64,000 nucleotides of DNA from Halarchaeum rubridurum (GTDB lineage Archaea > Halobacteriota > Halobacteria > Halobacteriales > Halobacteriaceae): assembly GCF_014647115.1 (NCBI RefSeq), contig NZ_BMOO01000001.1, positions 62,001 through 126,000 on the forward strand, written 5' to 3'. The stretch's first letter is position 1. Each line of letters opens with the position of its first letter. This document shows, piece by piece, positions 1,358 through 63,254 of the stretch. The notes beneath the pieces were generated by a model that was not told the DNA's origin, made no database searches, and saw nothing but the letters and a program-made list of their open reading frames with translations. The translations under genes and the position numbers were made by a program.

Positions 1358-1939
1358 ATGGCCGACACAGACGACGACACCGACCCGTACGCCGTCGTCC
1401 GCGCCGACGACGCGCTCCGTCCGCTCTACGAGGAACACGGCGAGCTCGGTCCCGAGCGCGCCGACGACCCCTTCGAGCGCCTCGTCGTCGCGGTCACGAA
1501 CCAATCGGTCTCGCTCGAATCCGCCGCCGCCGTCCGCGAGCGCCTCCGCGAGCGCGTCGACTTCGACCCCGACAGCCTGCGCGCCGCCGACGACGCGACG
1601 CTCCGCGACGTCGGCCTCAGCGACACGAAGGTCCGCGCCCTCCGCGAACTCGCCGAGCGCTACCCCGAGGGCATCGCCCACGCCGACTTCGAGGGGCTGA
1701 CGAACGACGAGGTGCGCGCCGAACTCGGCGACGTCTACGGCGTCGGCGACTGGACCGCGAACATGTTCCTACTCTTCGCCCTCGGCCGCGAGGACGTCTT
1801 CCCCGTCGGCGACCTCGGCGTCCGCAAGGGAATGGCGACCCTCTACGGCCACGAGACGCGCGCCGAGATGCGCGCGTACGCCGAGGCGTGGGCGCCGTAT
1901 CGGAGCTACGCGACGCGCTACGTCTGGAAGGCACAGTAG
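1358..1939 (+). CDS. DNA-3-methyladenine glycosylase, HhH-GPD (AlkA-like) family
   Basis: Base-excision repair enzyme that removes alkylated purines. 193 residues. The helix-hairpin-helix (YGVGDWTANMF, about residues 127-138) is followed by a loop with the likely catalytic aspartate D152 (PVGDLGVRKG), the usual spacing in the HhH-GPD superfamily. No C-terminal iron-sulfur cysteines are present, which argues against an endonuclease III type enzyme. At 193 residues it lacks the N-terminal domain of E. coli AlkA, as short archaeal homologues do. Single gene between a divergent acyl-CoA enzyme and an IS-derived element. Substrate range is inferred from the family. Confidence 0.88.
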   Translation: MADTDDDTDPYAVVRADDALRPLYEEHGELGPERADDPFERLVVAVTNQSVSLESAAAVRERLRERVDFDPDSLRAADDATLRDVGLSDTKVRALRELAERYPEGIAHADFEGLTNDEVRAELGDVYGVGDWTANMFLLFALGREDVFPVGDLGVRKGMATLYGHETRAEMRAYAEAWAPYRSYATRYVWKAQ

Positions 1940-2008
1940 CGAGGCGTCGCGGGGCGGGACGTCGCGGCCACCCGGAGACGGCTGAGAAAGGACGGCGCGC
2001 TACCTGAA

Positions 2009-2251
2009 TCAAGGAGAGAGTCCCGCCGTTCACGGCGTTAACGAGACGCTTCGCGTCTCGTCAACGGCAGACGACGGTATCACGGCCGATGGCACGGCCT
2101 GTGCGCCTCAAGTGGAACGACCACGACTGGTCAGAGTCACCACGCTCTTGTTCCAACGAGGAGCGCACGAACCCGCAAGTTGCCTCCGTGGGCCGGTAGT
2201 CGATACCCCCAGCGTGAGGAAACCCCGGCGTTCACGCCGGGGAGGATGTCA
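2009..2251 (+). mobile_element. Solo IS200/IS605-derived element (MITE-like), no transposase
   Basis: A gene-free stretch of about 240 nt. The left part has a small stem at 2025-2036 (GCCG-TTCA-CGGC) and a perfect 9-bp stem at 2041-2061 (ACGAGACGC-TTC-GCGTCTCGT). The right part ends in a perfect 8-bp stem at 2223-2242 (CCCCGGCG-TTCA-CGCCGGGG) followed by GAGGATGTCA. The left hairpin and its flanks (AACGAGAC...TCAACG) match, base for base outside the loop side, the hairpin before the TnpB gene near 63.14 kb, read on the minus strand. No open reading frame fits inside. The exact outer edges are uncertain. The right edge touches the stop codon of the convergent rimK-like gene. Confidence 0.6.
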
Positions 2252-3601
2252 TTCCAGCGACTCCTCCTCTTCCTCGTCCTGGTCGGCGGTCGCGTCGTCC
2301 TCGAAGCGCCGCGTGACGTCCACCTGGTAGTGCTTGAGGATGTCCCGACCGAGGAGAAGCGGGTAGTCCATGTGCGAGCGGTCCTCCAAGGAGGCCGCGA
2401 CGGTGTGGCGGTCGCCGCCGACGCCGACGACGATGTCGACGACGGGACGGGACTTCCCGGACTTCACGCTCCCGGACTTCACCTTCGTCATCGACTTGAT
2501 CGGGCCCGCGCCGATCTTCGCCGCGAGCTTCGTGTCGATGGACGTCCGCGACGCGCCCGTGTCGGACTTCGAGACGGTGCGCTCGGTCCCGCTCGTCCCC
2601 GAGACGAGCACCTCCTCCGTGTAGCCGACGACGCGGCCCGGCTCCGAGGTCTCGATGGCCGTCCGGGGCATCCCGGTCGGCGTCGACGTGTCGAAGTTCG
2701 AACGAAGAGCCGCGACGTCCTCGTCGTCCACCGCGCCGCCGGCCTCCTCGATGGCGAGGCGCGCGATGTCCGGGGCGGGGCTGACGCCCGTCGCCTCGAA
2801 GAGCCCCTTGAAGCCCGCGGTGGGGTTGACTTCGAGGACGAACCAGCCGTCGTCGCCCTCGACGACGTCGACGCCCGCGTAGTCGAGGCCGACGACCGCC
2901 GCGGATTCGGCGGCGATGTCGCGGACCTCGTCGGGGAGGTCGTCGATGCCCTCGACGGCCCCGCCGAGCGCGACGTTCGTCCGCCAGTCGTTCTCGGGGG
3001 CGTAGCGCCGCATCGCGGCGACGACCTCGCCGTTCACGACGTAGATACGCAGGTCCGCGTGCGCCTCGGCGTCGCGCTCGATGAGGTCCTGGAGGAACGC
3101 GTAGCGCTCGCCGACGACGGGGTTGACCTCCTCGTCGCGGCCGACCTTCCACGTGCCGCCGCCGTGCGTCCCGATGGCGGTCTTGTAGACGGCCTCCTCG
3201 CCGAAGCGCCCGCGCGCGTCGTTCATCCGGTCGGCCCCGAGCGCGAGGTAGGCGTCCGGGACGGGGACGCCCGCGTTCGAGAGCGCCGCGGCCGTTGAGA
3301 ACTTGTGGAACGCCGTCAGGACGTGTTCGGGTTCGTTCAGCGTCGGGCGGAGGCGCGCGAGCGTCCCCGCGATGCCGAGGAGCTCCGCGGGGTGTTCGGT
3401 GTTCGAGAGGAGGAGGCGGTTCGCCACGACGTCGACGTCGGGTTCGAGGGTCGCCTCGCCGTCCTCGATGGAGACGCCGAGGTTCTCCTCGCGGAGCCAG
3501 ACGCCGCGGTGGCCGAGGGCCTCGACGGCGTTGAGGATCGCCTTCGTCTCCTTGCTCGTGTGGAGGCTGAGCACCCCGACGGTCACGGGCTCGTCGGTCA
3601 T
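2249..3601 (-). CDS. rimK: RimK-type ATP-grasp ligase fused to a retropepsin-like (RimK-protease) domain
   Basis: 450 residues. An ATP-grasp ligase of the RimK/LysX type occupies about residues 1-300: candidate ATP lysine K140, glycine-rich THGGGTW 145-151, and EVNPT 257-261 for metal binding. The C-terminal part (about 320-450) carries an aspartic-protease-like signature DTGA 347-350 and a later LLLGRD 415-420, as in the RimK-associated protease family. RimK enzymes add amino acids such as glutamate to a carboxyl end; substrate unknown here. ATG at 3601 precedes the first core strand; an upstream in-frame extension is low-complexity and ignored. A box GTTTTG about 24 nt before the start fits a leaderless promoter. 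Divergent from a desuccinylase-like gene, a pairing that suggests a common pathway. Confidence 0.88.
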   Translation of the reverse strand: MTDEPVTVGVLSLHTSKETKAILNAVEALGHRGVWLREENLGVSIEDGEATLEPDVDVVANRLLLSNTEHPAELLGIAGTLARLRPTLNEPEHVLTAFHKFSTAAALSNAGVPVPDAYLALGADRMNDARGRFGEEAVYKTAIGTHGGGTWKVGRDEEVNPVVGERYAFLQDLIERDAEAHADLRIYVVNGEVVAAMRRYAPENDWRTNVALGGAVEGIDDLPDEVRDIAAESAAVVGLDYAGVDVVEGDDGWFVLEVNPTAGFKGLFEATGVSPAPDIARLAIEEAGGAVDDEDVAALRSNFDTSTPTGMPRTAIETSEPGRVVGYTEEVLVSGTSGTERTVSKSDTGASRTSIDTKLAAKIGAGPIKSMTKVKSGSVKSGKSRPVVDIVVGVGGDRHTVAASLEDRSHMDYPLLLGRDILKHYQVDVTRRFEDDATADQDEEEEESLE

Positions 3602-61649: not shown

Positions 61650-61760
61650 GTCACGTTCCGACACTAGTGAACTACCCTACCCTGCTCGCTCACGGCTTGC
61701 GCCGTTCCTCCTTGGGGGTAGGGCTTCCTGTTTCCACGACGCGCTTTGCAGATACGGGTG
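61650..61760 (-). ncRNA. Possible omega/reRNA region of the TnpB element
   Basis: The 3' end of tnpB plus the right-end stem (61692-61705) would form the scaffold, and the bases just past GTTCAC (from 61666 down) the guide. This follows the known layout of TnpB systems in which the guide RNA overlaps the gene end; here it is inferred. Confidence 0.4.
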
Positions 61761-62922
61761 TATCCACGGAGAGCGCAGTCTCCACAGGCATTGATTCGGA
61801 ATATCCCACTCCTACGTCTTCGAGGCCGCGAAAAAGAATGTTCCACGCCGCGTTCGCGTCCCTGTCCGCCACAAACCCGCAGGCGGGACAGGAGTGTTCA
61901 CGGACCCACAACGGCTTCTCCGTCGAAACGCCGCATGAAGCGCACTCTTTCGTCGTCCCTCTCGGGTTGACCGCAACGAAGTGCGTTCCTTCACGCTCGC
62001 ACTTGTATTCAAGCATCCGGAGAAACGCTCCCCACGCCGAGCCTGCCCGGTTCCGTGAGTTACCCGGGAGTTCGACCAAGCCCTTTGCGTCGAGATTTTC
62101 GACCGCTACGAGGTCGTACTCGGTAGCGTAATAGTTCGATAGCTTGTGGAGGAAATCCCGTCGCATCCGCTTGAGGTCAGCGTGGCGTTCGGCTACGACA
62201 CGGCGTTGTTTCTCCCAATTCGCAGACTCGTGTTCTCTCCGCGAGAGGTCGCGCTGTGCGCGTTCCAACCGCTCGCGCTCGTCGGAGAGGTCAAGCGACC
62301 CCACGACGGTTCCGTCGGTGTCGTGAGCGTACTTGAGAATCCCCACGTCGATGCCGACGCACTTCTCGGGATTCTCAGGTGGTTCAGGCGGTTCACGGTC
62401 CATTTGGACGCCGAAGGTGGCGAACCACTCGCCCGTCGGCTGCTTCTTGACCGAGACCTGCTTGAGCTTCGCGTCGTCGGGGATGGTGCGGTGGAATCGA
62501 ATCGGGATGTCCGCGAGTTTCGAGAGAGACAGCACAGTCTGACCGCCCTTCTTGTCGAGCTTGAAGCCAGACTGACTGTACGTGAAACTGCGGAACTCGC
62601 GTGGCGGCTTCCACTTGAGATTACCGACGTCGTAGCCGTTCTCCTTGAGTGCGGAGAGCGCTTTGAGGTTGTCGAACAGGCGTTCCACGACGGTTTGGAG
62701 AACCTTCGAGTACACGTTTGAAAGGTCGTCCCACCACGTTTTGAGGTCGGGTAGCTCCGACCGTAATGTGGTCATAGACGGCAGTTCGCCATGTTCGTCT
62801 TGGTACTCGTTGAGGCGGTAGAGCGTGTGGTTGTACAGTTGCCTACAAATGTCTCGGTGGCGGTCCAACTCTTCACGATGGGTGTCGGACGGCTTGAGAC
62901 GGTATTTGTAGGCGTAGTACAT
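61690..62922 (-). CDS. tnpB: TnpB (IS605/IS1341-type RNA-guided nuclease ancestor)
   Basis: 410 residues. N-terminal wedge/REC part to about 180; RuvC-like domain with D192 (VGIDVGILKYAHD), E275 (LVAVENLDAKGL) and D355 (ADRDANAAWNI) and a zinc ribbon C327, C330, C345, C348 (CASC...CPAC). All key residues are present, so it is probably active. TnpB proteins bind an RNA made from the element's right end and cut DNA. Starts 3 nt after the RHH gene stop. Length is normal. Confidence 0.92.
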   Translation of the reverse strand: MYYAYKYRLKPSDTHREELDRHRDICRQLYNHTLYRLNEYQDEHGELPSMTTLRSELPDLKTWWDDLSNVYSKVLQTVVERLFDNLKALSALKENGYDVGNLKWKPPREFRSFTYSQSGFKLDKKGGQTVLSLSKLADIPIRFHRTIPDDAKLKQVSVKKQPTGEWFATFGVQMDREPPEPPENPEKCVGIDVGILKYAHDTDGTVVGSLDLSDERERLERAQRDLSRREHESANWEKQRRVVAERHADLKRMRRDFLHKLSNYYATEYDLVAVENLDAKGLVELPGNSRNRAGSAWGAFLRMLEYKCEREGTHFVAVNPRGTTKECASCGVSTEKPLWVREHSCPACGFVADRDANAAWNILFRGLEDVGVGYSESMPVETALSVDTPVSAKRVVETGSPTPKEERRKP

Positions 62923-63075: not shown

Positions 63076-63186
63076 AATAATTCCGGCGAGACGTTGGCCT
63101 GTGGGACGAGCGTCGACCGTGTATGAAAACTGTACGACGTTGATGAGACGCTTCGTGTCTCGTTCACGCACGAGAGCTATGCTCTC

Positions 63187-63254
63187 GTGAACGCTGTATC
63201 CCATCCCTGCTTGTACCCTCCCGTCGGTCGGCGTTCGCTGAGGAAGGGGCTTAG
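63187..63254 (-). mobile_element. Decayed right end of a second IS1341-type element
   Basis: Read on the minus strand, AAGCCCCTT...GCAGGGATGGGATAC...GTTCAC follows the same order as the right end of the live element (GAAGCCCTA...GCAGGGTAGGGTA-GTTCAC). The two share the terminal GTTCAC. A frame that ends here (S-A-K ... QRTPTDGRVQ) resembles the tail of a TnpB. It probably is the remnant of another copy in the same direction. Confidence 0.45.

Follow-up and report, generated by a model that had tools for sequence, protein, structure and literature searches.

Within the window (the whole 64-kb stretch of DNA analysed, part of a 2.81-Mb haloarchaeal genome, G000), a 249-nt element lies between two convergent genes, and in all likelihood it represents an IS1341-type IS200/IS605 transposon that inserted 3′ of CTAC, lost its core and swapped the stop codon of the neighboring rimK-like gene while leaving RimK unchanged. 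The exchange of the stop codon by the terminus of the element is well supported by sequence comparison with copies at other loci, and such swaps look common in this transposon group. The features of the region are listed below in window coordinates.

1358..1939, plus strand: convergent neighbor gene, an open reading frame of 193 aa, HhH-GPD/AlkA-like DNA glycosylase by inspection
2000..2003, plus strand: target tetranucleotide CTAC, the left cleavage site, outside the element; CTAY stands 5′ of the left end in nearly all copies
2004..2252, plus strand: whole element (PATE), 249 nt, bounded by comparison with copies at unrelated sites
2022..2037, plus strand: remaining part (CCCGCCGTTCACGGCG) of the family left-end palindrome; 42 of 43 left-end nucleotides match the full-length copy L065
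2036..2066, plus strand: small-repeat hairpin GTTAACGAGACGC-TTC-GCGTCTCGTCAACG, recognized by its arms and by the copies in archaeon DL31; putative deletion junction between a left-end copy and a tnpB copy
2066..2252, plus strand: predicted omegaRNA (sotRNA) scaffold region, from a 40-pair covarying consensus of 37 relatives and a weak match to Rfam sot0042
2089..2199, plus strand: tnpB 3′-end remnant, the last 36 codons plus stop, in frame and sequence as in full-length TnpB C-termini
2223..2242, plus strand: right-end hairpin CCCCGGCGT-TC-ACGCCGGGG, an inverted repeat that covaries in relatives
2249..2252, plus strand: right terminus TCAT, of which the antisense ATGA gives the rimK stop TGA; of 52 copies retrieved with the right-end pattern, 51 have T after GGATGTCA
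2253..2272, plus strand: predicted guide segment, the first 20 nt past the element, antisense to the 3′ end of rimK and placed as in the layout published for TnpB omegaRNAs
2249..3601, minus strand: rimK-like gene of 450 aa, with an ATP-grasp and a C-terminal domain and the last residues ..EEEEESLE, and with orthologues, or paralogues thereof, in 40 of 40 genomes searched

A sequence-only reading of this DNA had set the boundaries of the element at 2009-2251. The family copies at unrelated sites begin with CTAYCT...AGGAGAGAGTCCCGCC on the left and end with ...GGAGGATGTCAT on the right, and their flanks diverge beyond both; because of these common ends and the nearly invariant terminal T, we placed the element at 2004-2252, inserted after CTAC. 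Terminal inverted repeats are absent, as neither of the ends CTGAATCAAGG.. and ..GGAGGATGTCAT is an inverted copy of the other and the repeats found are internal hairpins, and a target duplication is likewise absent, the left CTAC not being repeated past the right TCAT. A transposase is too long for an element of 249 nt, in which tnpB is reduced to 36 codons, and the near-terminal palindromes are kin to those of the IS605 type, both ends matching full-length tnpB elements. Judged from its sequence, the element is an internally deleted IS200/IS605 transposon (IS1341-type, TnpB-only), by kind an ordinary PATE, in agreement with the initial description as a transposase-less IS200/IS605-type element. 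The right-end hairpin at 2223-2242 was also recognized correctly and has perfectly complementary 9-nt arms, while the hairpin at 2036-2066 has 14-nt arms that are 93% complementary.

The latter hairpin had been taken as evidence of a family relationship with the TnpB element at 63.14 kb. It does recur there (30 nt, 87% identical), and this likeness is accounted for by its being a separate small repeat rather than a common left end. The left-end palindrome of the family is CCCGCCGTTCACGGCGGG, and we rejected the 2036-2066 hairpin as this palindrome, since the related left ends L065, L066, L077 and L078 do not carry it; some other left ends of the family bear a twin-hairpin unit at the place where it sits. 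A left end common to both elements was likewise rejected, because only the small hairpin repeat is shared and tblastn with the parent-type TnpB (L088) gave no hit at the 63.14-kb element, indicating unrelated proteins. The intact tnpB at 61690-62922 (minus strand, 410 aa) belongs to another subfamily and follows immediately after a short frame of ribbon-helix-helix-like sequence (62926 upwards, minus strand, ..TITIREDQDDWIEDQHLNLSSFVREQLDELIEERE). Twin-hairpin inserts of about 40-57 nt were noticed in the stems of IS605-type end palindromes, at left ends (L067, L068, L072-L076, L003, L027), at right ends (L077, L080, L231) and also at 63130-63200 of the window, and they vary among copies of one family. 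These inserts resemble the small mobile repeats (SMR-A) for which such palindromes are said to be the target in Haloquadratum (PMC3119063).

The right edge of the element abuts the rimK stop codon TGA at 2249-2251, as had been noted from the sequence. The same reading had supposed that the insertion set the C-terminus of RimK, an explanation that is favored by the position of the stop codon within the element terminus. Comparison of rimK C-termini contradicts it: in three same-genus orthologues that lack the element the last residues are ..EEEEESSE, ..EEEEEFGEE and ..EEEEEPLE, and acidic residues occupy the C-terminus of nearly all 29 RimK orthologues. Since orthologues without the element keep both the acidic tail and the end point, the insertion did not shape RimK; at the loci L067 and L071 the C-terminal end point of the gene is likewise unchanged by insertion, and the creation of the present C-terminus by truncation or extension of the protein is thus very improbable. 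In the same relatives the place beside rimK is empty, and a homologue of the convergent gene 1358..1939 adjoins rimK in three genomes (G001, G002, G003). That the 240 bp could be no insertion but a 3′ untranslated region or a gene-expression element, old and conserved, has nothing in its favor except the position between two convergent genes; the sequence is absent beside rimK in the relatives examined and parts of it recur in mobile elements elsewhere, at unrelated sites, so that we regard this reading as practically negligible.

We infer that the empty site was CTAC joined to TCCAGCG, or ..CTG GAG TAG on the gene strand, provided that T2252 belongs to the element. The present rimK end reads ..CTG GAA TGA, and the exchange therefore appears limited to the stop codon plus the preceding wobble base, the protein still ending in ..SLE followed by a stop. 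The former TAG is only a reconstruction, because same-genus rimK genes end with TGA, TAG and TAA, and their downstream sequences have diverged and are unalignable across the joint. An exchange of the same kind is seen at the L080 insertion, where five uninserted orthologues have CAC AAG TAG versus CAC AAA TGA in the gene next to the element. The empty-site query omitted the flanks of L065, L066 and L072 (those of L065 and L066 because the two flanks of each copy do not belong together), and the left flanks of L067 and L080 entered it in shortened form.

As the mechanism, we propose that a TnpB-only IS200/IS605 element would have inserted 3′ of a CTAC that was the antisense of the rimK end GAG TAG, and that its core would have been deleted at this site from one hairpin repeat to another, unless the element arrived already shrunken. 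In an IS605-type insertion CTAC would stay on the left and the element's own terminus TCAT would land beside the gene, whereby on the gene strand GTAG would be replaced by ATGA, the last codon turning from GAG to GAA and the stop from TAG to TGA. RimK would be left unchanged because GAG and GAA both encode Glu and TGA stands in the same register as TAG, and this match between the two ends of the element would help to account for the tolerance of such insertions where convergent genes end.

The frequency of such events was estimated for the whole group. The best-scoring coding frame adjoining the right end stops at the TCA of the element in 24 of 51 copies. In a second sample, collected with a less strict right-end pattern that ends in TCAY, 16 of 30 copies supply the stop of the convergent gene (15 of 29 without the present element, L223). 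Background CTAY sites coincide with a stop in 7-10% of cases (8.6% for the window, 9.6% for the loci), giving a binomial P of about 6e-12 for 24/51 and about 2e-9 for 16/30 when copies are treated as independent; the copies are not fully independent, and the coding frames are codon-usage score estimates trained on four window genes. Only 1 of 25 insertions with joined flanks is intragenic, whereas the share of intragenic CTAY sites is 75% in the window and 44% in the loci, and selection against gene disruption accounts for most of the stop excess. An active preference of the elements for convergent-gene stop codons, beyond the residue of this selection, was also considered: among non-intragenic sites only, stops make up 46% of insertions, versus 25% of window CTAY sites (P = 0.048) or 7.5% of those in the loci (P = 7e-7). 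The excess over window sites is however marginal and the loci background was scored with a codon model from another genome, which makes such a preference quite unlikely.

Concerning the ancestry of the element, positions 2066-2252 share 91-96% identity with the tnpB end and the adjoining right end of full-length elements from Halobacterium-group genomes and from a Haloterrigena plasmid, the 36 terminal TnpB codons are still in frame, and the left end is that of L065 but for one nucleotide. A close full-length counterpart is the IS1341-type element (Halar_0577) on plasmid phalar01 of the halophilic archaeon DL31, with the same left end and with 90% identity over 212 nt of the right part, hairpin included, which differs from the present element in having a whole tnpB and a further twin-hairpin insert in its right end. 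In DL31 the left end contains a hairpin of the 2036-2066 type, and so does tnpB within its 3′ part, so that a deletion between such copies would yield the 249-nt layout; tnpB was probably removed in this way. A search of the genome contigs for further copies, as proposed with the sequence-only reading, gave four partial relatives and no second complete copy in the 2.81 Mb, whereas in other haloarchaea there are full-length tnpB elements whose right part is about 90% identical, as well as a PATE of similar plan, 532 nt long, on a Halocatena marina plasmid. The site beside rimK is empty in same-genus relatives, but with a single complete copy in this genome, and with an in-place deletion of the core as a possible origin, movement in the shrunken form is only putative. 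No match was obtained among the phage records searched. The element has no tnpA of its own, and the genome contains two Y1 transposase matches, both on other contigs and one with an internal stop; we infer mobilization by TnpA in trans.

The tail retained after the loss of tnpB coincides with a predicted omegaRNA scaffold. An alignment of 37 such tails gave a consensus structure of 40 pairs with 98% of cells paired, including 106 double-change cells as compared with a mean of 28 and a maximum of 38 in shuffles, and pairing falls to 36-50% when the pairing partners are slid. The double changes favor pairing at the RNA level, and part of the conservation of the tail is at the protein level, because the alignment includes coding sequence. 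The Halobacterium sotRNA/TnpB omegaRNA (RF02656 sot0042; PMC12558985) occupies the same place relative to the tnpB 3′ end and right end, but the present scaffold is without attached tnpB and its match at 2046-2243 is weak (20.2 bits against a curated cut-off of 88); at the gathering cut-off Rfam gave no match in the whole window.

All 40 consensus pairs are intact in the window copy, and the genome has ten TnpB-domain matches; the nearest resident TnpB, on contig C9, is 56% identical to the DL31 protein. These observations would agree with an element that works on its own as a guide RNA, its omegaRNA being transcribed and taken up by a TnpB from another locus, which would cut the vacant rimK end and thereby favor retention of the element. 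We consider this unlikely, as the genome lacks a closely matched TnpB, the intact pairs may only mean that the copy is young, and the Halocatena PATE, with 8 of 40 pairs broken, gives no hint that the RNA stayed under selection once tnpB was gone; such selection is accordingly unsupported. Only tentatively, and with more doubt than belief, we may extend the preferred explanation, that of an insertion with a silent stop swap, as follows: in haloarchaeal elements of this IS605 group the left and right cleavage sites CTAY and TCAY would both bear an antisense stop in the same register, insertion at a TAG stop would turn it into TGA with the protein intact, convergent stop codons would thereby serve as a safe harbor, and shrunken omegaRNA copies could guide TnpB in trans to the vacant gene end.

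The kind of element itself is already known. The PATEs of Haloquadratum walsbyi, which arise by repeat-mediated deletion of the core according to the accessible text of PMC3119063, share with the present one the near-terminal IS605-type palindromes, a length too short for a transposase and the lack of terminal inverted repeats, and one of them, HqIRS71, also retains part of the transposase C-terminal coding region. The present element differs in having an in-frame tnpB tail and a whole omegaRNA scaffold, and the same text makes no mention of insertion at stop codons. The accessible part of PMC7290912 describes a PATE-like element of about 271 nt in Halanaerobium hydrogeniformans, again with a left-end hairpin, the last 58 nt of tnpB and a complete right end, but this is bacterial, derives from a different IS605 element and is presented without mention of a host stop codon. 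In the open-access papers searched, we found none on restoration of stop codons by IS200/IS605 elements; the exchange seems undescribed as far as that literature goes, which is not proof of novelty.

The fit of the element ends to neighboring stops, without change of the protein, may offer a simple sequence-level reason for the abundance of TnpB elements in gene-dense haloarchaeal genomes. For annotation it is also a warning that the stop codon of some haloarchaeal genes belongs to a mobile element. Guide-RNA scaffolds that are intact but have no nuclease gene beside them provide material for studying TnpB action in trans.

Several further arrangements were noticed during the search. On a plasmid of Natrinema sp. 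SYSU A 869 (L233), a tnpB tail plus right end has no annotated transposase adjoining and is possibly another such PATE. Two genomes of the genus share a left end of the same type together with its flanks (L003, G000:C10:7355-10403; L027, G001:C78:4003-7051), and a right-end-like match about 0.5 kb downstream of L003 suggests a further PATE-like element. L065 and L066 (G006:C1:949106-954999) are a directly repeated pair of nearly identical tnpB elements separated by 4.3 kb. The left flank of one copy and the right flank of its partner resemble the two halves of a membrane-protein frame joined at CTAC, an arrangement that looks like an inserted composite of two copies plus the intervening DNA.
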